DNA of 64,000 nucleotides from Loxodes magnus (Eukaryota; Ciliophora; Karyorelictea; Loxodida; Loxodidae), in assembly GCA_946699065.1 (NCBI GenBank), contig CAMPDV010000916.1:96553-160552 (forward strand), given 5' to 3'. The notes under the pieces were generated by a model. That model made no database searches, was not told the DNA's origin, and saw only the letters and a list, made by a program, of their open reading frames with translations. A program made the position numbers and the translations under genes. The first letter of the stretch is position 1. Each line of letters opens with the position of its first letter. Of the stretch, positions 3,936 through 64,000 are shown one piece after another.

Positions 3936-4984
3936 TAAAGGAATTAGATTTATACCTCAAACAGATTATATTATTAGTAGATAAAAAGCAAACTTTAACA
4001 ATAATATATCATATAACTACAACAGCATTATCACAGTTAAAGTTTTAGTTTAAAACAATTTAGATAAGACTAATAATATTAATTAGCTTAAGAGAATTAA
4101 AGATAATAGAAGTATAGTATCTAATATATAAGTAGTAACTAGTTATTGCTAATAAAGACAATTTAATAGTTATTATATAATCCTTTATTAAAAATAGTCT
4201 CTTTATTACCCTAAGCTTTATTATCTACTATCTTCTTTATTCTTTATATCTTACTAATTAAGGTTAAGTTTTGATATCATTATTATAGCTATTCCTATAT
4301 GTTTCTTAGGAGAAAGCAAATAAAACATTAAAGCTCTGAGTTTCTAAGAGAAGTCTAACTATATTAGTACAGTCTAAGATATGCATTGAGACTGGAACTT
4401 TAAATGTGTCTAGAAGTTATAATAGAATGTTCTATACCTTGTGATTAAGTATTTGCAGCTAGGATTTTTAAAGTGGCTTAGTCACTACAATTTAGTAAGG
4501 TATCATAAGAATGTGGTAGGTATTACTTTGATTAAAAGCAGCTAAGTTACTTAAGGTTTAAGGATTAATTATTGAGGAAATGTTGCTGAAACCTAAAATT
4601 GGGAATATATATGCAGTTTGAAGAGATTTAGATTATAGAAGAGTAAAGTAATAAATAGCAATTCTGTAAGGAAAGAAAAAGAAATAACTAACAAATCAGC
4701 ATTTATAGTCTTAAAATTTTGCTTCTAGAGGAAAATTCTTCTCAGCAGGAGAAGTTAGAGATAGTCTGGAATTCTTCGGCAGATAAAGTTAAGAACTACA
4801 GAAAACATTGATTTGATAATTGAATAATAGTGGTGAATCGAGTGTTAAAATAATGAGTGAGTGTAAAATGATGCATAACTGAATAATAGTGTTTTGAGCA
4901 TTATGAGTGATTGAAAATAATAATGGTAATGATTTAAAAAGGATTAGTGTTATTATATTTGATTGGTTGAAATAGTAGTAATAA
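3936..4984. other. AT-rich stretch without a supported gene
   Basis: No frame, RNA or repeat that I can support. The last 200 bases are rich in TGA and TAAT words and run into the 18S-like fragment. Confidence 0.5.
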
Positions 4985-5395
4985 ATTGGGTAGTTCATTA
5001 CACTATAGATAATTATAAAAAGGATAATTAATTTAAAGATATAAAACATTCAAAATATTTATTAGATATCGTCCGTGTGGAAATTTTAATACACGAGAAC
5101 CACGCTGGAGAGTATGGCAGGCCATTCAATTTTCTGTCCTATCAGCTTTCTATTGTAGTGTATTGGATTACCATGGCAGTGACAGATAACAGAAAATTAG
5201 GGTTCAATTCCGGAGAGGAAGTCTGAGAGACGGTTACCACATCACAACATCAAGGAAGGCAGTAGGCACACAAATTACCCAATCCTGACTGAGAGAGATA
5301 GTGACAAGAAATAACGACAACGGGTTTCGTCTCGGTGATTGGAATGATCACAACGTAAAAGCGTTACCGAGAGCCCACTGGAGAGTAAGTCCTCC
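4985..5395 (+). pseudogene. 18S rRNA 5'-region fragment, copy 1 (decayed)
   Basis: This is a GC-rich patch in AT-rich DNA that reads as small-subunit rRNA. It holds, in order, conserved blocks of the 5' domain: TTATTAGATAT, CCTATCAGCTTTC, GTGTATTGGATTACCATGGC, GGGTTCAATTCCGGAGAGG, GGAAGGCAGTAGGC, AAATTACCCAATCCTGAC, GTGACAAGAAATAACGA, TGATTGGAATGA and CTGGAGAGTAAGTC. It corresponds roughly to nucleotides 80-500 of an 18S rRNA. The match fades before about 4,985 and stops abruptly after the TAAGTC block, before the universally conserved core of the molecule, so it cannot be a working rRNA. Many C-to-T and G-to-A type differences from the eukaryotic consensus indicate age. A second copy lies at 18,849-19,294 in the opposite orientation. 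Confidence 0.9.
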
Positions 5396-6019
5396 AATTT
5401 TGTTCTAGAGGTCTTTAAAAATATAGTATACATGAATTAAGGTTGGTTTTAACCGAAATCCCATCATAAATTTAAGGAAAAAAGCTGAAGTGAGCCTAGA
5501 TTTTGAAATAGAATAGTTAGCTTGTATATGAAATGTAATGAGTTGCTTATTTGGATGATTTGTTGCTAAAGCGTCTAATTTGGGGCAGAAAATGGTTAAT
5601 ATAGCAAAAGTTGAAAAAGTGTTCATGATAAGCAGATAAAGTGATTTGCTTTTGATAGTTAAAACTTTAAGAACAATGCTGTCAAAGATCTTATCTTTCG
5701 ATTGATTTGACACCTTGAACTAAATAGATCTAACAAATTATCATCTTAAAGACTAAATTTTTGCTTCCGTGCTTAAATAGTTAATTTATTAGTAGCAGTT
5801 ATATCCTGCATGTTCAATCGCTTAAAATTTTGTCTTATTTAATTCTAAGGAGAAAATCTAAAATATGCTAGGCTAATTTAAGATTAATAGTAGATAACTA
5901 CGATTAGATAAAAGCAGCAATTAATAGATTCTTATTTTCCTTCTGTAATATTTTAATTTTTTCCAATGTTAGCTCAAATTAATGATTGTGATTAGTTATA
6001 TATATAGTAAACTAAAAGT
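5396..6019. other. No supported gene; one short reverse frame
   Basis: A minus-strand frame of about 100 codons (5,405-5,713) is open even in the standard code, with two hydrophobic stretches, but it has no recognisable motif. The rRNA match does not continue here. Nothing else is supported. Confidence 0.4.
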
Positions 6020-6125
6020 AATTAAAGTTTAGCGTTCCCTGGATTTTCAACCAGGTTTTTGCTACCATTTTTTTAGCGTGGATGGATACCACGCCATTTT
6101 TTTTTGTGAATGGAACCACTGAGAA
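6020..6125 (-). other. Three tandem TGG/CCA hairpins at the 3' end of copy A1
   Basis: In the element's sense direction three stem-loops follow one another: a weak GTG/CAC stem (6,106-6,119), GCGTGG/CCACGC with a 7-base loop (6,076-6,094), and CCTGG/CCAGG with an 8-base loop (6,038-6,055). The same three occur in the same order at 40,307-40,390 with changed loops. They overlap the end of the reading frame. A role as a 3' recognition structure for reverse transcription is inference. Confidence 0.6.
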
Positions 6126-6817
6126 TCTTCTGTCTTTTATACGAATATCTTCTTCTTGTAAATTCCCGTTTCGGTGATTCAGAGTCTGCTAAGCATTCTT
6201 AACGTTCTTTGTTGTTCTTTCATCTAAATTTATCTTCACTGATCGCAATTTTGTAATAGGTGTCACTTTGATTTGCAATAATAGCAATTTTTGATTGGTC
6301 TTTTCTTGAATCTCTTCAGAAATACTTTTTCTTCAAGTTAATCGATTCTTTGGAGTAATTCTATATTAATCTTTTCGTCATTCTATTTTTCTTGGATGTT
6401 TGTTTATGTAGAAACTTTTTCAATAATCATATTTTGTTCTTGCTTAAAATTCGATTGAGATTATTCATATAGTTACTATTCCGTGACTAAATTATTTTAA
6501 ATTAATTGTCGTCTTATTATTAGTAGCTCGTTGTTTTAATCTTCGATAGTATTCATTAGTTCTCTTATTTTTTCCCCTTGATTGTAAATTGTTTCCTAAT
6601 AATTTTGTATTATTGTTTTCATTTAATCAATTTATATTTAGATTTCTGATTATTTTTGTACTTTTACTGGATTCGTCTCTATTGTTCCAATTATAACTTT
6701 TCCTTCAGATGAGGAACTTGATTTATCTTCTTCTTGTTATTGTTTCTGCATTAGTTTCGCAGCTTTCCTTTTTGCGTTCTTAATTTGGTTTTTGGAAAGG
6801 CGAATAGATTATTCCAT
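6047..6817 (-). CDS. Coiled-coil/zinc-knuckle element protein (gag or ORF1-like), copy A1
   Basis: The ATG at 6,817 opens a frame of 256 codons, using TAA/TAG as Gln, ending at a TGA at 6,047-6,049. The N-terminus is basic (MEQSIRLSKNQ), followed by a Ser/Glu-rich patch near residues 35-42. A Gln/Glu-rich segment that should form coiled coil spans about residues 55-165. A CX2CX4HX4C zinc knuckle (CYYC...H...C) lies at about residues 178-191. This architecture fits the nucleic-acid-binding ORF1 or gag protein of a retroelement. Three in-frame TGAs (6,263-6,265, 6,236-6,238, 6,179-6,181) interrupt it if TGA is stop. The first sits inside the knuckle and the other two coincide exactly with TGAs in the diverged relative at 39,607, so I infer that TGA is sense (Trp). 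With TGA as stop the protein would end inside the knuckle after 184 residues. Confidence 0.7.
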
Positions 6818-17900: not shown

Positions 17901-18848
17901 GCTAAGCTTCTATATATAATTCTATAGTCTATTGCTGTCTATTAAATATAGCTAGTAAAAAGACCTGTATGTACTAAATAGTAGCTTTCAATTCTAAAAA
18001 CTAATATAAAAGTATACTTTATTTATACCAACAGATCATAAATACAATTAGCCGCTTCTTTTAAAATCCATACCTTAGACTTAAGCTTAGTTTCCTACAA
18101 AATACCAATCAACCAAATTTTAAGTTAAGATATTAATAAAGATTAAAAAAATGACTGTGCTAAGTAATGCTAATCACTAAAATAAACCTAATTGACTTTA
18201 ATAAAACATAATCATAAGGAGCTAGTAACTAAGCAAGAAGAAAATAAGTATTAGTTAATTAAAATCTAAATTATTAGAATGCTCTTATCTAAGGGTTACT
18301 AATAATACTATACCATATAATAGCTACTTAAGAGTTTATGCTTCATACTTATAGATAGTAGTATAGATCTTAAGAATAAGATTAAGTCATAAGTAATAAG
18401 AGTCAGTTTAATAATACAATCAGTAGTTAATAATCATCATATACAAATTATTATTATTATAATCTAGTATACCTAAATACTTCTATCAATGTAGCTAATA
18501 ATAAGATATAATCTTAATCATAAGTAATCTTACCAACAGAATTAACAGTAATCAACAATACAAATTACTCAAATCATACCAAATTTAATAATACAACATC
18601 AAACACTTAATACTACTATTATTATTCCAACTAACTACTTCTATATTATTTATATTCACTAACTATAATCCATTCTGTCCATCAAAAACTTTATCACTTT
18701 TAACCAACTTATGGAATATATCAAACAAAAACCAAAGTAAATAGAGATAAAGACTAGAAAATCCAGAAAATATCCAAAATACATGTTGCAATACCAAATA
18801 ATTACTAGAGAAAGAAATAAAGAAATATCAATTTAAAATAAATTTAAT
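11961..18848. other. Long AT-rich stretch without a supported gene
   Basis: Nearly 7 kb with strand-asymmetric AT-rich sequence (pyrimidine-rich at 13.2-15.4 kb, purine-rich at 15.6-16.2 kb). Frames open in the ciliate code are short or have no recognisable motif. I see no RNA gene. Confidence 0.45.
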
Positions 18849-19294
18849 CTCCGAGACTAACTCAGTGTCACTTTTTCTTGTCACTATCTCACGCAGTCAT
18901 GATTGGGTAATTTTTACGCCTGCTGTCTTCTTTAGATGTGGTTATCGTCTTTCAAGCTTCTTCTCCGAATTGAACCCTAATTCTCCGTTACTCGTTACTG
19001 CTCTGATAATCTAATATTTTACCATTGAAAGTTGATAGTGTAGAAACTTAATGATCTGTCATACTTCTTAGCATAGTCCTTGTGTATTATAATTCCATTT
19101 TTAAGATATCTAATAAACATCTTTTAGTTATTTGTTCATTCTAGTGTTACTATGATTACGTATCTAGCATACCATTAAATAAACTATCACTGGTTAATGA
19201 TCTATTCGCAGTTCCACAATTCAATACTAGCATTTATACAGAATGGCTTAGACTAAGAGATAAGAATCCATCTACATGTAGGATCAACCAGATT
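18849..19294 (-). pseudogene. 18S rRNA 5'-end fragment, copy 2 (decayed)
   Basis: On the minus strand this starts at the true 5' end of small-subunit rRNA (ATCTGGTTGATCCT, compare the universal ACCTGGTTGATCCTG). It continues through GTCTAAGCCATTCTGTATAA, GGAACTGCGAATAGATCATTA, GATAGTTTATTTAATGGTA, TTTATTAGATATC, AGAATTAGGGTTCAATTC, AAATTACCCAATCATGACTG and TAGTGACAAGAAA. It ends abruptly near CTCGGAG. It therefore covers about the first 410 nucleotides, overlaps copy 1 (4,985-5,395), and is more diverged than that copy. It is antisense relative to copy 1 and lacks the rest of the rRNA, so it is a non-functional insertion. Confidence 0.9.
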
Positions 19295-30599: not shown

Positions 30600-33500
30600 A
30601 ATTTCCCTTTTTTTAAATAGAACTTCTTTTTCAAACTAATCTTTTTACTCAATTATTTCTATTCTTCTTCTGAGCAGTTTTTTATGAAAAATCTTGATTC
30701 TAAGGTCAATTTTCTTGAGCTACTGAATACTTGTAAAGTTCTCATTTAAATATTTTTGGTTATAGGTTAAGAGCTTTAGTAAATCATAATTTTTTAAGTC
30801 TTTAAATTCTTCAATTAACTCTTTCAAGATCTCACATGTTAGAATATGTTTAAAAATATCAAGTTCTCCGCAAGAACATGTTTCAGAGCTTTAAATGTTA
30901 TAATACCTTTACAGCAAATCATATTAGAAGTTATAGAAAAATGTTCTATGCTTATAAATCGATACAATTTCTCTTACCATATGTTTGTTAAGATTAAAGT
31001 AATTTTAGATTGGGAATTATGAGGTGTTATTGTCAATTTCATCTACATATAAGTATGCTATAGGCATTAAGTTCATTCTTATTATTGAATCTAAATAAAA
31101 TTTTTGTCTTATTTTATTTTAAACTAATCGTAGGAATTCTTTGCCTTCTTTAACATCCAAATGATCAATTTAAAAATGCTAAGATAGTTTCTATAATTTC
31201 TTAAAATATTAAGATTACTGATTTTTTGTTTTATTATAGAGGTAAACTATATCAGATTTAGGATTTGTTTCACTTTCTAATAGCATTTTGAGATAGAATT
31301 TAAAATATCTCATAGATATATAATATTCAAATGGAAGTAAATTCAAATCTATGAAGCAAAATTCGTTAAAGGAGGAATTAGGACTCTTAAATGCATATCT
31401 TGATACTTTTCTCTGACTAATATTTATATCTTTTTTTATTTTCTTCATTCCTTTTAGAATAGCTCATGGTATTATTTCTGATCCATATTCAACTTTCGAT
31501 AATATAAAAGATTGAAAGATTTATTTAAAATTTTATGGTGAAATATTTCTATATTCTGCAAGTTATAGCAAAGTTCCATTCACACACTTCCTATACTTTC
31601 GGCAAATATCATAAAAATGAATTTTGTAATTTTAAAGTGCATTAAAATTAAATCCTAAATATGTAACATTTTTAACTTTTGATAATGTTATTATTCAAAG
31701 TAATATTAAAATTGTAATCATTCTATTTTTAATTCTTCTTAAGAAAACATATATATTCACATTTTTCTGTATTAATTGATAGTTTTACTCAACTAAACAA
31801 TTTTCAAACAGCTTTTATTAAAGAATTCATATTATCTTCATTTTAAATCAATAACAAATCTTCAGCTCATGCTTTAGTTACAAAATAACGGTTCAAAATT
31901 TTAAATATAAGTTATTTCTGATAATTTTCAAGGTACCAAGGTATCTAATAACAATATGCTAGAAAATTATAGCAAATACTGGTTCATGTGAACTTCCTTA
32001 TAATACACCATTGTTATATTATAACATTCTTTATAAAATGATTTTATACTATTTATTAGTGCTAAAGGTATTTTAATTCTTCTTAAATGATCAAAAAATA
32101 GACATCTATCAATACTATCAAACATCTTTTCAATATCAATAAGAGTAGAGAGCAAATGTTTCTTCTTTCCTCATCTTCTATACAAATCATTAATTTATTA
32201 TAAGGCTCATATTTAGTGCATAGTTTATATTTTCTTCAGAAATACTTAATGTGAAGGTTGTATAATCTTTCATTCAATATATTCATATAACCTTTAAGTA
32301 AGCTTTTTATCATATATTTTAAGGATGAAGTTTATAAGTGAAATAGGTCTCCAATTTATTCAATCAATTTTGATCCCTTTTTGTAAATAGGAAGGATTAT
32401 TATTTACTTAAGTTAATTTGGATTATTTTGATTTCTTAACATGTTATTTATAAATTTTAAAAGCACAAGATGAAACTCTTTATTAGCATATTTAATCATT
32501 TCTGCTTTTATGCCATCAGCTCCACCCGATTTGTTATTTCCTAATTTCTTTATAATTGCTTAAATTTCATTTAAATGAAATAGATCGAACTCTTGTCTAT
32601 ATATAGGTACCTGCTCTTATACGAAATCACAATTTCTATAAGAATTATCAATTTTTTAATTACACTTTCTTATTTCTTCCTCATCAATGTCTTTGTGCTC
32701 ATTAAAAACATTATTTTGCTAATTAATTATGAAATTTGAAAACCCTTCAGAATCCAAATACATATTATTTCTCTTTCTTAGATTTAAAAACTTTTTTGTT
32801 TACTTAAACATTTTAGTAGGAGATTCATTCATTTATATTCTATTTTTGTTGGCTTATTTTTACTTGTATTTCCAGTAATTACTTTTATATCTATTATATT
32901 TTTTATCTTTAATAAGCCAACTTCAAAAATATCTAGTTTACCCTTTCTTATTATTCTAAAGCTTGCTAGTAAGCTATTTGTGCTTATTTTGCTGCGTTAA
33001 AACTCTTAATAATATTTATTGGAAGTAAATTAAAGTTATTATTCTATGGAACTGATCCTAAGATTTAATCTGCATTATTAATGAGTAAATGTCTTATAAA
33101 ATAGTATTATTAATCTAGATTATTTTAATCAATTATATCAAAATTAATCAAGCATCATTCAAATAAGGCTTTATATTCAGATCTAATTTCTAAATTTTAA
33201 AGTTTATTAATCTTAAAATTTATTCTAGGAGTGAGAATTGGTACGTTTCTATTAATATTTTAGATAAGTAAGTTAAACAGTATAGGAAAGTGATCTGCAA
33301 CAAGTCAAGTGTTATGTAAAACTTAAAATAGTGTAATCTAATCAATGTTGATATGATAATTGACTATAACATAATTGTTGCAATAAGTTTAAGGTTAACC
33401 CTACTTCTAAAAGTATCAAATCTTGTATTATTAGCTATTTATAAATCATATTCTTTTATAAAATTATTTAATCTTAAAGCGTTATTTTATTAATTATATG

Positions 33501-34406
33501 AATTATTACTCCCATACTCTTACAAAAGAGCATTAAAGTCTCCCAATAGCATAAGGGTTTAATCTCCTACTTCATTAAGGATAAGTTCTAAGTTTTAATA
33601 TGATTAGTCTTTGATAGATAGAAGTTTTTCCTCTGTTGGCATATAATATGTTGCAAAATAAATGTTATCAACTTTAATTACTAAGAAATGACTATTTTAA
33701 TCGCCAAAGTCAATTTCAATTTGTCTCGAATCAAGTTCTTCTTTGACAATAAAGCAAACACCACCTGATCTTTAGGATTATTCACAATTTTTAAAATATG
33801 TTCTATATCCTTAAATTTATATTGGAATGAAGTCTTAATATTATCAAGTTTCATTAATTGAATAAATATATATTCCTTATTATCGAGTAAATTATTGAAT
33901 ACTTAATTATTTTGATTATATTTAATTCATATTGCAAAGAGCTATTTTTAATTAATTTGCTTCCGCTCCTCCTTTAAGTCCTGGGTCGTAAAAGTAAAGA
34001 ACTTTTTAATTATTGCGAATTTAAATGTGGAGTAATTTTGGAGTTTAAATTATTGAATTTCTATAGCAATTAATAATAAATAAAGTTAATGCATCATATT
34101 GCTATGTTAGTTTTTAATCTATTTTAATTGTTACTTAATTACTTTCAATTGTGGCCTAATTTAATTTATTAGATAATGTAATAAATCTATTTTCAACTTA
34201 AGCAAAGAGATTTTAATTTTGTCATTTTTTCGTGCTTATAAATTAAATAAAGTTTTCACTTCTAAAGTTATTTCTTTTAATTATTTCTTCAACATCAACT
34301 TCAAATAATTGGTTATGTTACATAAATTTCAATTTACTTTTACTTAATTATGCATCTCACTAAATTCTTTAACCATTTATATTGATTCTACTGAATTTGA
34401 ATCCAT
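30600..34406 (-). pseudogene. LINE ORF2: endonuclease and reverse transcriptase, frameshifted
   Basis: Starts near the ATG at 34,406. Endonuclease: NET followed by TGA (33,844-33,846) where the family has NETW, then SGGVCFIVKEEL, YFATYYMPTEEKL, LLGDFNA (about 33,550) and ADHFPI (about 33,280) standing for the SDH motif. Reverse transcriptase: NNKSGGADGIKAEMIKY (about 32,540), IILPIYKKGSK (32,385), NWRPISLINFILKIYDKKL after a frameshift, the palm motif LIDIEKMFDSIDR (about 32,120) and, after another shift, a degenerate YADD box as (TGA)AEDLLLI (about 31,870), then LSINTEKCEYI. C-terminus: FEYYISMRYFKFYLKMLLES (about 31,300) and a CSCGE...H...C motif (about 30,860). The catalytic Asp pair reads Glu-Asp, so this copy is probably inactive. 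Confidence 0.88.
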
Positions 34407-37660: not shown

Positions 37661-38430
37661 TAAATTTTAATGTCTTTAATTGAAAGAAAAATTCTGATAA
37701 TTAAGGATATCTAAAAATATTTTAAGTTTAAATTTAAATTATTTAATAGCAATACACATAATCTGAAAGATAAACTATTAAAACGATGGAGATTAATTTT
37801 AGACCTTTTTTAAAAAATGTATTATTATAATTTAAAAACATTGAAAAATATATATTAAGTAGCTAGGATAATTGTAAATATTAAATATATTATAATTATT
37901 GGAAAGAAATAAAACACATAAATTCATATCAATTATAAAAATTAAAAAAAAGCGAATTAGCAAAAATATTATTTTACTATATTAAAAAATTAAATAAAGA
38001 GCTATTTAATTAATTATTTATTTTTAGAGTTTGAGGGCTACTGACTTTAGCCGTACTGTGTTTTCTGAACGACTTTAACAAAGAAGGAAAAATAAAAATA
38101 AAAAAATGTTTGCTTTGACTAAATATTGATAAAATTATAGGCTTAAAATAGCTATCTGTAATTACAAAATTTAATTTCTAAAATCTGGTTTCTTTCCGAA
38201 AATATTCTATCAATACTAAGATTTCAAACATAAATAAACTTTAAATGTTTGTAAGATATAAACTATACCTCATTGAAATTAAAAGAAATTAAATAATTTT
38301 AAAAAACTATTTAATTTATAAAAACAAAAATAATAAATTTTTTTTAATTTACTATTAGAAATGTAAAAGAATGAAAGTAAATGTTTAACTTATATATAGT
38401 AAATTATTTAATTTTTAAATCAAATAATTG
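37661..38430. other. AT-rich stretch without a supported gene
   Basis: A-rich sequence, possibly the tail of the plus-strand LINE remnant. No motif seen. Confidence 0.4.
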
Positions 38431-38431
38431 A

Positions 38432-38722
38432 AAAGATGGTGGGAGCTGAGAATGACCTTCGTGACAACACTTTCTGGTTTTATGGCTAGGAGCAAGTTCC
38501 TTTCCTGTCGCTGAGAAAGTCCCTGGTCAGAGTCATTTTCTGAAGGGAACACTGTCTTTGAGATTATCCGCTCTTGGTAGGGGCTTGAAGCCTGGCTGCT
38601 CATAGCGATGGAGCTCCCTAGCAGCTGTGCCTGGAGCATAACAGGATATCCCCGTTATTCCATAAAAGAGAGCGTCGGGTCGTGCAATCGGAAAGGAGTT
38701 TCCGGTCCAAAAACTTTTTAGT
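38432..38722. other. Isolated GC-rich island, possible structured RNA or foreign insert
   Basis: About 290 bases near 50% GC with sharp edges inside DNA of about 20% GC. Short perfect hairpins follow one another: GGCTT-G-AAGCC (about 38,581), TGCTC/GAGCA (about 38,598-38,637), ATAAC/GTTAT (about 38,638-38,658) and CGGAAA-GGAG-TTTCCG (about 38,688-38,703). In AT-rich genomes such islands are often structured RNAs. On the minus strand 74 codons are open in the standard code with CAG as the Gln codon (38,415-38,639), unlike every other gene here, so a fragment of foreign coding DNA is the rival reading. I could not match it to rRNA, tRNA, SRP, RNase P, telomerase RNA or spliceosomal RNAs from memory. 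Sixteen bases recur at 39,486. Confidence 0.5.
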
Positions 38723-39485
38723 TGAAATTAATTAAGAAAACTTTAGCTTAGTTTAAATTAGGCAATTGGATAAACTAGTGTTAAGTTTAAAGAGATTAGT
38801 ATTTACTTTAAATCTTTAATTAATTATTTATAAAAGTATTATTTATATCTTTCATAAATATTTAAGAATTTGTAATAATAATCTAAATTAAATGGTAAAA
38901 AATATTAATAACTATAAATGGTTGTAAGCTTATTTATATTTATAATGTATTTGTATATTTGCTTATTTTTAGTTTTTCTTTTAGCTACAAAATAATTATT
39001 AATGTAACTATTATTCCATTTTAAAATGTTTGAAGATTCTATAATTTTAACAGATTTAAGATTATCATAAATAGTAAAAGGATAATACTAAAATTAATAT
39101 GCTTAATTTTTGAATATAATATATGGAAGCAAATTTTTCTGACAACTTTACTTTTATAAAAAATAATTAATTGCTTTTTGTTCAGTTAAAAAATTATTAG
39201 AATAATTATGTTTTAAAATCTTAACCAAAAATAAATTTTTGTCTAATAGTTATAATAAAAAAACAAACATATGCAAAATAAAATAATTTAAGTTAAAATA
39301 AATAACTAAACATTTTTATTTTGCTATTTAATTTTTACAATATTAACTATAAATTATAATCAGAAATAGAAATTTGAAAAGAATATTATTATTGGAATTA
39401 GGAAATAACATATGAAAAGTAAAGATAAAAATTATTTCAAGATTTAAATTAAAAAAAATTAAAAAACTCACAATCAGTTTATTTT

Positions 39486-39501
39486 TTATCCGCTCTTGGT
39501 A
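39486..39501 (+). repeat. 16-base word shared with the GC-rich island
   Basis: TTATCCGCTCTTGGTA occurs here and at 38,564-38,579, followed in both by an AGG after 0-2 bases. It lies about 105 bases upstream of the ATG of the element protein at 39,607. A GC-rich word of this length is very unlikely to recur by chance in such AT-rich DNA. Confidence 0.6.
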
Positions 39502-39606
39502 TAGGTGAAAAAGTGCTCTTTTCTATAAAGATCAATAAAGTAATAAAAATGCTTTATTTTATGAAGAAAATAATTAAAACATAAGAAATCATATTAAGAA
39601 AAAAAA

Positions 39607-40461
39607 ATGGATTAATCTCTTCGACTCTCAAAAAATTAACTTAGAAATCTAAAGAGAAAAGCGGCAAAAGAAATTTAGAAAAAATAATAACAATAGGAGG
39701 AGTCAAGCTCTTCTTCAGAAGGTAAAGTTATGGTAGGATAAATAGAGATAAGTTAACCTAAAAACGAAACTAATCAAAAACTTTAAATTTAATTAGACCA
39801 AATGTAAAAAGTAATCTCAAATTATGAAGAAACAACTTACAACTTAGGCGAAAAAATACGGGAACTAATGAGTAACATAGAAGATTAGAACAACGAATTA
39901 CTAATACTTAGAAGATAACTTATTTGTAGCAAATTAATAACGGAAGAATAACTCTGAACTTAATCATAATAAAATTTTAAATACGACACAAAAATGGAAA
40001 TAGAAAAAATACCAATAGAATTAAAAACAGAATTGAATCCAGAAAAAGAAATGATTGCTACAAGTTTCATTAAAAGATTAGAAAATATAGAAAATAAATT
40101 ATCATAAAAAAGAACGAAATAAAGACAATAATACAAACTTTGTTGATGTTGCAAATCAAATCAACATATTTTAAAAAACTGTTGATAATGAAAGAAAATA
40201 AACGAATAAGAGCAGAAAAGAACATAGAGACAACTCAATAAACTATGAATAACTCCAACAGGGATCTACAAATAAAAGCTTTTTGCAAGACCACTTGAAC
40301 GGTTACAGTGGTAACCTTCCACTTAATAAAAAGGTCGTGGATCACACCCACGTTAAAAAAATTGTCCGCAGGAACTGGTTGCAATTCCAGAGAATGCAAA
40401 ACTCTACTAACTTTAAGTATATTATTATTATTATTAAGAAATCATATTACAAAAAAAATGA
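39607..40461 (+). CDS. Coiled-coil/zinc-knuckle element protein, diverged relative (copy B)
   Basis: The ATG at 39,607 follows an A-run. The frame runs 284 codons to a TGA at 40,459-40,461. It aligns end to end with the 6,817 protein: MDQSLRLSKNQ at the start, the Ser/Glu patch, YNLGEKIRELMSNIEDQNNE in the coiled coil, KRLENIENKL, and a CX2CX4HX4C knuckle at about residues 178-192. Internal TGAs are at 39,955, 40,144, 40,183, 40,189 and 40,246. Those at 40,189 and 40,246 fall on exactly the TGA columns of copy A; those at 39,955 and 40,144 align with Tyr in copy A. This pattern argues for TGA as Trp. Identity to A is roughly half at the protein level. The sequence ends in three hairpins and an ATT-rich tail. 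Confidence 0.65.
40303..40395 (+). other. Three tandem TGG/CCA hairpins at the 3' end of copy B
   Basis: AGTGG/CCACT (40,307-40,323), CGTGG/CCACG (40,336-40,352) and CTGG/CCAG (40,375-40,390), each with a 7-8 base loop. They match the order and spacing of the hairpins at 6,020-6,125 although loops and surrounding bases have changed. The first could alternatively pair as GGTTAC/GTAACC. Confidence 0.6.
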
Positions 40462-42040
40462 CTTAAATAATAAAATCAATAAAAATTGTCTTTTTATAAA
40501 AAAAATACGAAAAAATAATTTGCCTGAACTTTTTTATTTGTAACTCTTATCGTTTTTCTCCAAAAAAAAATGTTTTTTTGATTCTATAACAAAAGATTTA
40601 AGACAGATTTTACCAATTTTTATACGAAAACATTTAAGATTAAAGAAATAGAATTAATAAAAACCTTATTTAGCTTAATTTATAATTTTTGTAATAAAGA
40701 AAAAAATTGCCAATAGTTATTCTTTACTAAAAATGTCAGCTCAAATAATTAATTTAGTAAAGCAAAAACTTAAGAAAAATTAAAAAATTAAAAAAACGAT
40801 GATGGGATTCAAATTTATAAAAAATAGATTAAAAATCATATAAACAAAATGAGATTATCTTACTTATAAACATTTTTTCATTCTTCTTTATTTAAAATTT
40901 CGTAAAAACTTCTATTTAATCTTCTCAAATTCAATTACTCTTTCAGACTCAAACTTCCTTTATTACTCAAATTCTCACAAGTTTTTTTTATCAAATTTTC
41001 TTCATAAAAATTTTTTTTTCATATTAAATTTTTTTGTTTTATTTCATTTTTTTGATGTCGTTATTTTTATCTATATTTTTTTTAGTTTGATTTTTTTTTA
41101 CTTTCTTTTCTTTTAATTTTTTTTAGCAATTCTTTTTCATCTAATATTTTACGAGTTTTATCATATCTTAACATCTCTCAAGCTTTCTGCATTTACAAAA
41201 TAATTTTTTTTTCTTCTTCACGTTGCTTTTTTTTAGGCTACAAAGAATTTTTTTTTTCAAAGTTAAAATTTATCAATACCTGCTATTTGTGAAGACCTTC
41301 TGGTTTTTTTTAACTAATCTAAGTGATTAGTTAAATGGTTATATTTCAAAAGTTTTAAGCATTTAATTTTATTCTTTTTTTAATTTAATTTTCTTTTTTT
41401 TAAGGTGATGTTTTTCTCTAGTCATTTTTCCTTAATTTGTGATGTTTTCTTCATTACAGTTTTTTTGTTTTTAAATCCATTTCGGATCAGTTTAGAAGTT
41501 TCACTTTTGTTTCGCCTTGCTTTTTTGACTTTTTTATCTGATGTTACACGAATCTTACTTATAATTCGTTATTAACATCTCTCAAAGTATTTTTCATTAA
41601 ATTCGTACATCATATTTTTAATGAAAATTCCTTACTATTTACTAAGATAAAAAAAGATTTGAAATCTTTTTTCGAATGTTGTATTTTTCAATATTATTGG
41701 TTTTTCCTCTTAACTCTTCTTTACATCTTTTTTCATACTGAATCAACAGAAATTTTATTAATAAGGTAATTATTTTTAATTTTAAAAATTTATAAAAGAA
41801 AGAAATATCAACAACGAGACAAGGTAAAGCTAGAACTTACTAGATTTTATAAAGAATTAAAAAAAATTTAAATAAAAGGAGATAAAAAAGGTAAATTTTC
41901 GTGACTTCAGATAATTAGATTATAGTATTTTTTAAATATTTAGGTTTGCTTTTCAAATTAAGATTTATTTTAAGAAAAAATAAATATGAAAAGAAGATAT
42001 AAAAGAAAAAATTGAGAAAAGTAGTAAGAGTATAGAGTTC
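40462..42040. other. Strongly strand-biased AT-rich stretch
   Basis: The plus strand is T-rich with long T runs. On the minus strand two different frames both look like Lys-rich protein over the same bases, which shows that composition alone can mimic coding here. It may be the 3' part of the minus-strand element that begins at 43,132, but I cannot choose a frame. Confidence 0.4.
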
Positions 42041-43559: not shown

Positions 43560-44372
43560 TCACATTACACTTTAATTTACGTTTACTTCGTTGTCTTTCA
43601 AATTTTTATGTTCATTTTTTTATTTTAAATTAATATAATAATATAATAATGTGACATCACCTTTATTTAGCTTGCCATAAATTAGAGTTTTGTAGTAATT
43701 AATAGGTCTCGAGATCGTATTATACTTTATTTTTTTAATCGTAAATTCTTATAACATTTTTATTTTCTCCTCTTGCTAATTCTTGTAAGTCAAATTCAGA
43801 TTGTATCTCTCAATGCCTTTTAGATTTTTGAAGTTTCTAAGAATGGTTAAAATATTTTTTCTTGAAAGTCTTCTAGTTGTCAAGCATAAGATCTTAAATA
43901 AATTTTAGATTTCTCTTTCAGTTACTTAAGATTGTTTCTTCTTAAATCGTTAACACTAATTAACCTTATGTCCATACTTATAGCAATATCAGCATTTAAT
44001 TTTTCTTTTCTAATAAAATAAGTTTAGTTCGGATTCTCTTCTCTTTATGATTCTGAATTTGATAATTAATTGAGCTTGATATGCTCCAGTTATCTGATCC
44101 TCTGGTAAAAATTTTATCTTAAATTTCATTCTATTTGACCAATTTACCTTTCTATCTATTTCTAAGGAAATAGTCTACTATTTAATTTCTTGCTTAGAGT
44201 CCTATTAATTTACCAATTAGTTAATGTTAGCATGAGAGATTAAATTATTTATTTAAAGTCTTAAACTTTTTTACTAACTTCTAATTATCCAATTGAAACA
44301 ATAGAAATAGTTAGCAAAGTCTGGTTAATTATTAGATTTTGTTGGAGAATTCTATTATTTCTTAGATGCCAT
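43560..44372 (-). CDS. Zinc-knuckle element protein with one internal TGA
   Basis: The ATG at 44,372 opens 270 codons to a TGA at 43,560-43,562, with no frameshift. The start is MASKKQQNSPTKSNN. A Gln-rich helical region follows (about residues 45-75), then a segment with a plausible fold (INWSNRM-like basic/aromatic mix, LPEDQITGAYQAQLIIKFR). The zinc knuckle is at residues 127-140: Cys-TGA-Tyr-Cys-YKYG-His-KVNQ-Cys. The end is ISRPINYYKTLIYGKLNKGD followed by an ATT-rich tail. The only internal TGA (43,989-43,991) is the residue after the first knuckle Cys, where an aromatic residue is common. It lies about 0.43 kb upstream of the related frame at 43,132, in tandem. Confidence 0.65.
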
Positions 44373-45605: not shown

Positions 45606-45851
45606 TTTATTCTTTTTTATTCTTTTCTTTCTTTCTTTCTTTCTTTCATTCTTTCTTTCTTTCTTTCTTTCTTACTTACTTTCTTTCATTCTTTCTTTCT
45701 TTCATTCTTTCTTTTCTTTTCTTTCTTTCATTCTTTCTTTCTTTCATTCTTTCTTTCTTTCTTTCTTTCTTTCATTCTTTCTTTCTTTTCTTTTCTTTTC
45801 TTTCTTTCATTCTTACTTTCTTTCATTCTTTCTTTCTTTCATTCTTTCTTT

Positions 45852-45883
<32 letters not shown>

Positions 45884-46135
45884 TCATTCTTTCTTTCTTT
45901 TCTTTTCTTTCTTTCATTCTTACTTTCTTTCATTCTTTCTTTCTTTCATTCTTTCTTTTCTTTCTTTCTTTCTTTCTTTCATTCTTTTTTCTTTCTTTCA
46001 TTCTTTCTTTTCTTTCTTTCTTTCTTTCTTTCATTCTTTTTTCTTTCTTTCTTTCTTTCTTTCTTTCATTCTTTCTTTCTTTCATTCTTTCTTTTCATTC
46101 TTTCTTTTCTTTCTTTCATTCTTTCTTTCTTTCAT

Positions 46136-46167
<32 letters not shown>

Positions 46168-46682
46168 TCATTCTTTCTTTTCTTTCTTTCTTTCTTTCTT
46201 TCATTCTTTTTTCTTTCTTTCATTCTTTCTTTCTTTCTTTCTTTCATTCTTTCTTTTCTTTTCTTTTCTTTCTTTCATTCTTACTTTCTTTCATTCTTTC
46301 TTTCTTTCATTCTTTCTTTTCTTTCTTTCTTTCTTTCTTTTCTTTTCTTTCTTTCATTCTTTCTTTCTTACTTTCTTTCATTCTTACTTTCTTTCATTCT
46401 TTCTTTCATTCTTTCTTTTCTTTCTTTCTTTCTTTCTTTCATTCTTTTTTCTTTCTTTCATTCTTTCTTTTCTTTCTTTCTTTCTTTCATTCTTACTTTC
46501 TTTCATTCTTTCTTTCTTTCATTCTTTCTTTTCTTTCTTTCTTTCTTTCTTTTCTTTTCTTTCTTTCATTCTTTCTTTCTTACTTTCTTTCATTCTTACT
46601 TTCTTTCATTCTTTCTTTCATTCTTTCTTTTCTTTCTTTCTTTCTTTCTTTCATTCTTTTTTCTTTCTTTCATTCTTTCTTT

Positions 46683-46714
<32 letters not shown>

Positions 46715-46725
46715 TCATTCTTTTT

Positions 46726-46757
<32 letters not shown>

Positions 46758-47048
46758 TCATTCTTTCTTTCTTTCATTCTTTCTTTTCATTCTTTCTTTT
46801 CTTTCTTTCATTCTTTCTTTCTTTCATTCTTTCTTTCTTTCTTTCTTTCTTTCATTCTTTCTTTTCTTTCTTTCTTTCTTTCTTTCATTCTTTCTTTCTT
46901 TCATTCTTTCTTTCATTCTTTCTTTCTTTCTTTCTTTCTTTCATTCTTTCTTTTCTTTCTTTCTTTCTTTCATTCTTTCTTTCTTTCATTCTTTCTTTCT
47001 TTTCTTTCTTTCATTCTTTCTTTTCTTTTCTTCTTTTCTTTCTTATCT
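45606..47048 (+). repeat. 1.4 kb CTTT microsatellite with regular ATTC and TTTTC interruptions
   Basis: An almost pure pyrimidine strand of TTTC units in which ATTC replaces a unit every 3-8 units, with occasional TTTTC and TTAC variants. Larger blocks of about 150-220 bases recur inside it, so it has a higher-order structure. The long open frame through it (Phe, Leu and Ser only) is a by-product of the 4-base unit and is not a gene. Confidence 0.97.
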
Positions 47049-47079
47049 TATTTCATTTAATTCACTCGCCTCATACACT

Positions 47080-47449: not shown

Positions 47450-49807
47450 TCACTCACTCAGTTGCATAGACTTCCACTCTCTATCCTTCAAAGAACCAAC
47501 TTTTATGTCGTAATAATATATCACATTTGCCTATGACTTATCACTACTCCACATCCATATTACATTATTCACATATTGACCATTGTATCAGAAATTAGAT
47601 GATTAATATGGATATTAACTACCATCCCTTATCATTGACCTAGTGTCAAACACACAAGTTTACTAAAGATGATTACCATTGTCCCAAATATAAGCACACT
47701 CAGTCTCATTCACTCACACACTTGCCAAACCAAATGCCGGCTTAGGTAACTACATTCCATACTACTAATACACACTCAACATCACGTCATATGATGATAC
47801 CAAACTTGATCTATGGAAATTATTAGATAAATCTGAACTTTATATTCGACCACCCACTATCCATACTCTCTCATGTGATACCCATATTCCATTAAAAGCG
47901 ATACAATCCTTATTACTCAACAATGACACAGACTTATTCAAAACCATGTCGTACACCTCCAATGAATTGTAGTAATTACAATAATCATGAGATGATGGAA
48001 AATAAGATTACGGATCCTTTCCTCCTAATATATACAACAATCTGTCATTGTCATATCCCATTTAAGAAATAGTTCTTGGCTAGATCAAAGAAGCTGAGGC
48101 TTTTATCACTGAATCACTACCTACAGTTATTTATAAGATCTTATCCAGATGTGATTTAGTTGAGTTACCACCCACCTAGATTAGTAGCTCATCAGAGATC
48201 TAATGTGTCGAGGATCAATTAGTATATATTGGAGTCATTTTTGATACCACATTGTAAACACAGGAGCCATTGATACTGTCCAACTAAAAAGATTATATCT
48301 TATTGGTATCATAGAATACTCTCCTGTATACTTTTATCTATCTAGTCTAAGATTTAGACTATTCCAAAGCCAATGGTAAGTCTTTTAATTATTGTTCTTT
48401 TTACCTTAGCAATTCAGAATGGACTTTATTATCAGCTTCCAATTAAATAAATGCAGACTTTAAAACCTCTTACTCCTTCAATAAGATCTTTGTCTACTCT
48501 TAGTAATTCAAGTTCTCTTATTATAATTTAGATAATTAGTTTTATAACTAAGTGATGGCTTATCTACTAAGAGTTAATTCCTATTGAAGAACAGTTTTTT
48601 GCTGTTGAAACTATTAAATCTCTTAAGCATATTATAGTTATTAGGTCTAACGTTAGTTGTCCTTATTCTTCAACTAAAGCTGATACTCATATGCATTTTG
48701 CTAGAGGACTTAAAAAGATTCTTATTTCGTTCTTGCTAGCTAATCAGTTAAATCCTAAATTGTCCTATTCTATCCGATGACTTATTGACTTAAACCATTA
48801 ACTTGACTAAAATAATAGGAAACCTATTGCTCTAGGGAGGTGATTTGATTGCGATATACTTATTCTTTATTTTAGTATTAGAAGTGCTATTTCTGAATGT
48901 CTTGATACAAACGCTTTATGGCTAACTATAGTTGCTTGATCTAGCTTGCTTAGGCTTTCTAACTCTAGTAAACTTGGTTAGGCTAAAGCTACTGCATTAG
49001 ATAAGAAATGATAAAATTCTAGAGACCCTATTGACTTAAATTCTCTCGACATATAACAGAGGATGATTAGGAGATACTCTAGAACCTATCCTAGATTGTT
49101 AACTCAAATTGATTCAACTAGTTCCTTTTATTCTCACACTGATTGATATTATCCTAAGAACTATTTGAGATAGCTTCGACCTAACTTCCTATCACCTGAT
49201 AGTAATCAGATGTTTCTTTAATAAACTAAATTTGCTTCTTTATTTAGTATTATTAGTTATTCACCATCTTCTACCATGCCTACTTGATACTTTAATTGAT
49301 CGATTGCTTTACCTAAACCATATTAGCCATTCTGGATATCTACAATTAACTTATCTGACTATACCATTAATACAATGTAGATATATATTAGATTAGTCTC
49401 TACTTGATAGCTCTATAGGTAGATTCCAAGTAACTCTTTAAATGCTAGATTGCATCCTACGTAGCGATACATCTATGTCCTTAATGCGATATCTAATAAC
49501 ATTGTACACAGATTCTTATGCTATCCTATACGCAATATAGAGTTAAGGAATACTATCTATGAATAGGGCAGATGTCCTACGGATTGATAAGGTTCTATGC
49601 CTATTGCCTTACTAGATCTAGGATTTGTAGTTACTCAATTGGTCTTTCAGTTATGACGTTGTGAGTTTCACATCTAAACTTTTTATTAATCTTATAAATG
49701 CCTTTCAAGCATTTCTCACAGAGAATACATCCACAGTCCAACTACCTAGGCTTTTTAAGCTCTTAGTTGAAATCTTCTTCACATAATTCACACTTGGCTG
49801 CTGACAT
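47450..49807 (-). CDS. RING/B-box/coiled-coil/Kelch-repeat protein (TRIM-like architecture)
   Basis: The ATG at 49,807 opens 785 codons in a single frame with TAR as Gln. RING-type finger: C6, C9, C25, C27, C30, C33, C46, H49. B-box 2: C80-x2-H83-x8-C92-x7-C100-x2-C103-x4-H108-x2-H111. Residues about 120-500 are Gln-rich coiled coil. From about residue 510 there are Kelch-type blades (LLIQVGGNS, LLYILGGKDP, VWIVGGRIQ, AYIWDNGN). RING/B-box proteins of this kind are often ubiquitin ligases, and a Kelch propeller would bind the substrate; that is inference from architecture. TGAs interrupt the frame at 48,215-48,217, 47,714-47,716 and 47,588-47,590, all in the Kelch half; the last TGA (47,450-47,452) is taken as stop. 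With TGA as the only stop, a 530-residue RING/B-box/coiled-coil protein would remain. Eight Trp codons are TGG. It is richer in GC than its surroundings, so it looks like a host gene or a young pseudogene. Confidence 0.8.
48200..48247 (-). other. Candidate 48-base intron in the Kelch gene
   Basis: On the minus strand this begins GTATCA and ends CATTAG, contains a TACTAAT branch-like word, has a length divisible by three, and includes the first internal TGA. Removing it would join VYNV to ISDELLIQVGG in frame, just before the first Kelch blade. The two later TGAs have no such explanation. Confidence 0.35.
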
Positions 49808-63395: not shown

Positions 63396-64000
63396 AAAAA
63401 AAAATGGAATAATCTATTCGCCTTTCCAAAAACCAAATTAAGAACGCAAAAAGGAAAGCTGCGAAACTAATGCAGAAACAATAACAAGAAGAAGATAAAT
63501 CAAGTTCCTCATCTGAAGGAAAAGTTATAATTGGAACAATAGAGACGAATCCAGTAAAAGTACAAAAATAATCAGAAATCTAAATATAAATTGACTAAAT
63601 GAAAACAATAATACAAAATTATTAGGAAACAATTTACAATCAAGGGGAAAAAATAAGAGAACTAATGAATACTATCGAAGATTAAAACAACGAGCTACTA
63701 ATAATAAGACGACAATTAATTTAAAATAATTTAGTCACGGAATAGTAACTATATGAATAATCTCAATCGAATTTTAAGCAAGAACAAAATATGATTATTG
63801 AAAAAGTTTCTACATAAACAAACATCCAATAAAAATAGAATGACGAAAAGATTAATATAGAATTACTCAAAAGAATCGATTAACTTGAAAAAAAAGTATT
63901 TCTGAAGAGATTCAAGAAAAGACCAATCAAAAATTGCTATTATTGCAAATCAAAGTGACACCTATTACAAAATTGCGATCAGTGAAGATAAATTTAGATG
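63396..64000 (+). mobile_element. Small ORF1-only element, family A, copy A2 (cut by the right edge)
   Basis: Begins with an A-run before the ATG, like copy A1 at 6.0-6.8 kb, and is about 99% identical to it over all 597 bases in the window. It is in the opposite orientation, about 57 kb away. The 3' hairpins would lie beyond the window. Confidence 0.75.
63404..64000 (+). CDS. Coiled-coil/zinc-knuckle element protein, copy A2 (partial)
   Basis: The first 199 codons of the family A protein, in frame to the window end. It differs from copy A1 at only a few bases, and at least one difference (a CTA versus TTA-type change in the coiled coil) is conservative. The TGA inside the zinc knuckle (63,956-63,958) and the next one are the same as in A1. 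So the TGAs were present in the source copy and were no bar to recent duplication. Same inferred role and same caveat about the code as for A1. Confidence 0.7.

Follow-up and report, generated by a model that had tools for sequence, protein, structure and literature searches.

The zinc-knuckle ORF that begins at 39,607 on the forward strand of a Loxodes magnus window (the whole 64,000-nucleotide stretch analysed here, C916:96553-160552 of an assembly of 705,730,643 bases in 7843 contigs) poses a question about the genetic code, since the interval 39,955-40,248 is bounded by the first and last of its in-frame TGAs. Does UGA only terminate translation here, or does it also specify an amino acid? 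An earlier sequence-only reading of this DNA had proposed that UGA is tryptophan, on top of TAA and TAG for glutamine, a proposal that host genes and tRNA-Trp genes have now borne out. We conclude that in this presumably nuclear window UAA and UAG almost certainly encode glutamine and internal UGA tryptophan, with UGA near the mRNA 3′ end acting as the stop; the assignment of UGA to tryptophan is supported by actin, by tubulin, by a Kelch family, by the divergence of the zinc-knuckle ORFs and by the tRNA-Trp genes. That reading had also pointed to karyorelicts as precedent, rightly: the source organism is itself a karyorelict, a group assigned NCBI table 27, with UAA/UAG = Gln and UGA = Trp or stop (available portions of PMC11441545). 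The code of Loxodes and its relatives is thus already published and our result is a rediscovery; what it offers is an independent comparative confirmation of that stop/sense code, drawn from host genes and from recently spread elements. Features of the window are collected in Table 1.

Table 1. Coding features of the window, in window coordinates
Feature	Coordinates	Strand	In-frame TGAs and remarks
Retroposon, ~0.82 kb	6003..6817	-	ORF from 6817; TGAs at codons 185, 194, 213; fourth at codon 257 (6049-6047)
Retroposon as at 6003..6817, second copy	63404..64000	+	truncated at window end; 603 bases aligned at 99.3% DNA identity
Reverse-transcriptase stretch, same frameshifted LINE as below	32018..32356	-	RVT_1 match with three in-frame TGAs inside
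LINE endonuclease frame	33340..34059	-	NET-TGA at 33846
Diverged zinc-knuckle ORF	39607..40287	+	five: 39955, 40144, 40183, 40189, 40246
Second zinc-knuckle protein frame	43560..44372	-	single TGA, codon 128, adjoining first knuckle Cys
B-box / RING-like / weak Kelch-like protein, 785 codons	47450..49807	-	sense TGAs 48217, 47716, 47590; terminal TGA 47452

In conserved host proteins, Trp columns carry TGA, swapping with TGG. Six actin genes (picked from 96 matches) and six tubulin genes (from 150) were selected to include both TGA-bearing and TGA-free genes, so that these samples show TGA positions and not TGA frequency. Five of the eight in-frame TGAs in actin fall in canonical Trp columns where paralogues carry TGG, an enrichment with P = 5e-9 if cells are assumed independent, which paralogues are not. 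The columns are 77 (TGG 3, TGA 3), 84 (TGG 4, TGA 1, TTT 1) and 342 (TGG 3, TGA 1, Leu 1, Phe 1), which we take to be Trp79, Trp86 and Trp340; a further column, presumably Trp356, has TGG in four genes and no TGA. In tubulin, seven of nine in-frame TGAs occupy two Trp columns: Trp21 (TGG 3, TGA 3) and, in beta-tubulin, Trp101 of NNWAKGHYTEG (TGA 4, TGG 1, with Phe in L065). In the beta-tubulin motif GQCGNQIG, some genes use TAA/TAG where another has CAA/CAG. Counting against a uniform tryptophan reading, of the 17 TGAs found across the two proteins five lie off Trp columns, where the alternatives are Q/P, G/R, F/Y/H, G/N and R; all are in the paralogues L059, L063, L067 and L068. Host genes free of TGA at conserved Trp columns, with TGA only at their ends, would have refuted the sequence-only reading, and the actin and tubulin genes are not of that kind. 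UGA as tryptophan is a property of the genome, mobile elements not being its sole carriers. Many matches with equal or almost equal scores crowd single contigs, both for actin (C266, C524, C707, C711, C1162) and for tubulin (C64, C441).

Within the window, the Kelch frame had been said to pass three TGAs, and the frame read from 49,807 on the reverse strand does cross three before it reaches a fourth. The Kelch label reflects weak matches (Kelch_4, 16 bits, E 0.012, under cut-off); a B-box scores above its cut-off in Pfam (33.5 bits) and a RING/U-box under its own (19.1 against 25.2 bits). A phmmer search with the Kelch part found no match in the PDB, no relatives of the protein were confirmed in viral_contigs, and a structure predicted for that part from single sequence (pLDDT 37.4) was set aside. 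The gene contains 42 TAA and 52 TAG codons, and over its length the coding frame holds three in-frame TGAs, while each of the other five frames holds 13 to 27. We scored codon usage with a model trained solely upstream of the first TGA, taking same-frame windows as background: the 254 codons past the first TGA, including those at 47716 and 47590, score above all 3696 background windows, and the 90 codons past the fourth are unremarkable (440 of 3760 windows as high or higher). Taken alone, the piece between the second and third TGAs is equalled or outscored by 42 of 3778 windows, and that between the third and fourth by 40. The coding signal crosses three TGAs and fades beyond 47452, where GC falls from 32.4% in the coding sequence to 20% in the next 60 nt; the last in-frame TGA lies 46 codons, and the last TAA 51 codons, ahead of this stop. 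A 1.4-kb TTTC tandem repeat (45624-47049) is found downstream of the gene.

Could the Kelch TGAs instead be sitting in tiny introns? The introns of L. magnus are indeed short (mean 19.3 bp, 93% of them no longer than 25 bp; PMC11441545), and three GT..AG stretches of 15-30 nt, each a multiple of three long, span the TGA at 47716, while one of 48 nt spans 48217. However, neither 48217 nor 47590 has a candidate of 30 nt or less, such a stretch spans 288 of 700 control codons by chance, introns of 3n length are relatively depleted in L. magnus (same portions of PMC11441545), and the TGAs in the Trp columns of actin and tubulin are flanked by gap-free alignment. A tiny intron may still cover the TGA at 47716, but as a general account of the Kelch TGAs tiny introns are unlikely overall, and we give them very little chance.

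The reading of internal UGA as tryptophan can also be followed through relatives of the Kelch gene elsewhere in the assembly, where a search listed 59 matches (best 40 of 605 candidates scored); we compared 28 near-full-length copies, the window copy being counted once. Measured against the window copy, 20 of the 27 others have indels in multiples of three only, and seven have single-base indels. All 28 copies carry TGA at codons 698 and 740. At codon 751, 22 copies have TGG and six have TGA, and codon 148 is TGG in 20, GGG in five, CGG in two and TGA in one; at codon 398, TAA (24 copies) exchanges with CAA (one) and TGA (three). There is evidence on the other side too: at codon 531, 21 copies have TGA, five TTT and two ACT; codons 65, 398, 528, 610, 666, 693 and 784 have TGA in one to four copies and other residues in most; and past the first TGA only two of six pairs show a third-position excess at p < 0.05. 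At eight loci with flanks, the window's included, the terminal TGA is at the same place in six and one codon later in one, the eighth having no anchor.

Euplotes, in which UGA is cysteine, counts towards the possibility that UGA means some other amino acid here (Cys, Arg or selenocysteine). Selenocysteine at UGA in Condylostoma magnum and Parduczia (sections of PMC4967479) counts the same way, but in actin, in tubulin and in the Kelch family it is TGG with which TGA alternates at Trp columns, which contradicts the idea for most TGAs examined and leaves it barely credible, although a few selenocysteine codons may exist.

Tryptophan at UGA also makes sense of the zinc-knuckle ORFs from which the question arose. 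As had been claimed, the 39,607+ and 6,817- ORFs align without gaps after the last knuckle Cys, and both have TGA at the 3rd and 22nd codons beyond it (P = 0.0012 for two shared columns under random placement), and the identity there, put at about 60%, is 20 of 35 residues (57%) by hand count. The 227 codons compared hold all three sense TGAs listed for the 6,817- ORF. Two other TGAs of the 39,607 ORF had been placed opposite Tyr, and TAT stands opposite them at columns 117 and 180; one more faces Asp (column 193), and in the 6,817 ORF there is a TGA that faces CAA, for Gln (column 186), in its relative. Past the first shared TGA the two ORFs differ 9/8/21 times at codon positions 1/2/3 (32 codons, p = 2.7e-4), and past the first TGA of the 6,817 ORF 13/9/27 times (41 codons, p = 3.6e-5); columns 118-185 show a weak third-position excess (29/21/34 over 67 codons, p = 0.048). 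The 44,372- frame likewise has a single TGA in 270 codons, at the residue after the first knuckle Cys, just as described. A G+C-rich island (38301-38950) shares, by eye, ATCCGCTCTTGGTA with sequence upstream of the 39,607 ORF; an Rfam scan of 38200-40500, which covers the island, found no match, and a MORN_DRC7 match at 38202-39002 (+) (E 0.0015, 18.8 bits) is under its cut-off of 26.8.

The LINE, too, carries NET-TGA in its endonuclease frame, as had been noticed. CR1-like endonucleases have an ETW motif, and five PDB alignments of this frame show ETK or ETH at the ETW position. This copy is frameshifted, so that its TGAs alone prove little, and we regard NET-TGA as only suggestive. No relatives of the endonuclease were confirmed in viral_contigs, and Pfam, run on 30 selected frames of the window, yielded nothing above cut-off beyond the reverse transcriptase and the weak Kelch matches. 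The rival that the sequence-only reading had itself raised, that UGA is a stop only and that elements were copied along with inherited nonsense codons, could draw on the frameshifted LINE and on the knuckle TGAs opposite Asp and Gln, but it is rejected, with next to no probability left to it, by the TGAs at canonical Trp columns of host actin and tubulin, by a Kelch family with TGA in every copy at two columns and a TGG/TGA swap at another, and by a knuckle ORF divergence that stays third-position-biased beyond the TGAs. With internal UGA as tryptophan, the mobile elements would simply follow the host code.

One such element is the 6,817- retroposon, a ~0.82 kb single-ORF zinc-knuckle element that looks young and very recently active, because a search of the assembly with its ORF gave 2341 first-look candidates and all of the best 40, which were scored, have 100% identity as rounded. 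Thirty were taken as loci (L029-L058). TGA is present at codons 185, 194 and 213 in 26/26 copies with an exact start anchor; with a second anchor, by which 29 of the 30 loci are readable (L055 lacks it), TGA is found at these codons and at codon 257 in 27 copies, and at the first three only in the other two. All 29 have an A-run upstream of the ATG, and 27 have a constant 3′ end at base 814-815, a TA-rich tail usually coming next. The longest strings common to both flanks measure 12-19 bp and may be target-site duplications. By eye there are ~18 different flanks among the 29 copies, which are therefore not all separate insertions; over 770 nt they comprise 11 distinct sequences. The fourth TGA, at codon 257, ends ~44 nt short of the constant 3′ end, a position that would fit a stop selected by nearness to that end.

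How UGA could serve both purposes is suggested by the wider comparison. UAA and UAG would be decoded as glutamine and UGA as tryptophan inside coding sequence, and UGA would terminate where it is close to the mRNA 3′ end (cf. NCBI table 27). In L. magnus, available portions of PMC11441545 give a GC content of 33.5% for CDS and 18.6% for 3′-UTRs, a median 3′-UTR of 41 bp and a depletion of UGA and UAA over the ~20 codons preceding the stop. Our data agree in UAR = Gln, in UGA as Trp within genes and as their stop, in coding and downstream GC, in the presence of a LINE-like element, and in a Kelch stop preceded by 45 codons without in-frame TGA or TAA; no difference from table 27 was seen in the features tested. 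UAA/UAG as glutamine is found in the Kelch gene, its family and beta-tubulin, and internal UGA as tryptophan in the Kelch family, actin and tubulin, while a UGA stop near the 3′ end, with UGA/UAA depletion before it, is found in the Kelch gene family only. Ciliate table 6, with UGA as stop only and none within genes, does not describe the Kelch family, actin or tubulin. Position-dependent UGA, as Trp and stop, occurs in Condylostoma and Parduczia (sections of PMC4967479); the code of Condylostoma magnum (table 28; same sections) is alike in its sense use of UAR for Gln and UGA for Trp, but UAA/UAG are also able to stop there (in part from sections of PMC4967479); the one gene end studied closely here, that of the Kelch gene, has TGA. 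In practice the window needs translation with table 27, and under another table its genes look broken.

The sequence-only reading had proposed to check its idea by looking for a tRNA-Trp with a UCA or modified CCA anticodon. The assembly does contain tandem genes for a tRNA-Trp(CCA) whose anticodon stem has 4 bp, a form published as reading UGA. One exact pattern match located a tRNA-Trp(CCA) with a 5-bp stem on contig C110; among the best 40 of 131 candidate relatives, which were scored, there are at least two further 5-bp copies on C110 (L072-L074 region) and a tandem array on C148 of at least 37 matches, most ~241 bp apart. In a 3-kb part of C148 (L075), 13/13 genes have T.C atop the anticodon stem, which leaves 4 bp. 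According to PMC13092985 and PMC12005148, in the portions available, such a 4-bp tRNA-Trp(CCA) decodes UGA in Blastocrithidia and Condylostoma, and Loxodes has one as well. The genes found here are like those of Blastocrithidia, Condylostoma, Blepharisma and Loxodes in these portions, in the CCA anticodon and the unpaired top stem pair, and unlike them in the tandem array and the three 5-bp C110 copies. We infer from this literature that UGA is probably read by tRNA-Trp(CCA) with its anticodon stem cut to 4 bp, encoded by the tandem genes. ARAGORN found no tRNA in the 64-kb window itself. A tRNA-Met(CAU) at L073:726-798 has a body that is, outside the anticodon arm, nearly identical to that of a nearby tRNA-Trp, as if one had been remoulded from the other.

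It is possible, though we hold it as the more doubtful side of the question, that gene dosage drives UGA decoding, several dozen tandem 4-bp tRNA-Trp(CCA) genes serving UGA and a few dispersed 5-bp copies serving UGG; the young, short knuckle retroposon would be locked to this code, with three sense UGAs and a last UGA that stops since it lies ~44 nt from the 3′ end. With the tRNA array and so minimal a retroposon, both the division of labour between UGA- and UGG-reading tRNAs and the choice of stop by 3′-end distance become testable.

Elsewhere in the window lie two diverged fragments of the small-subunit rRNA 5′ domain, at 4933-5398 (+) and 18796-19291 (-); both end near model position 595-605, they are 74% alike over 289 bases, and they are perhaps an rRNA-derived repeat.
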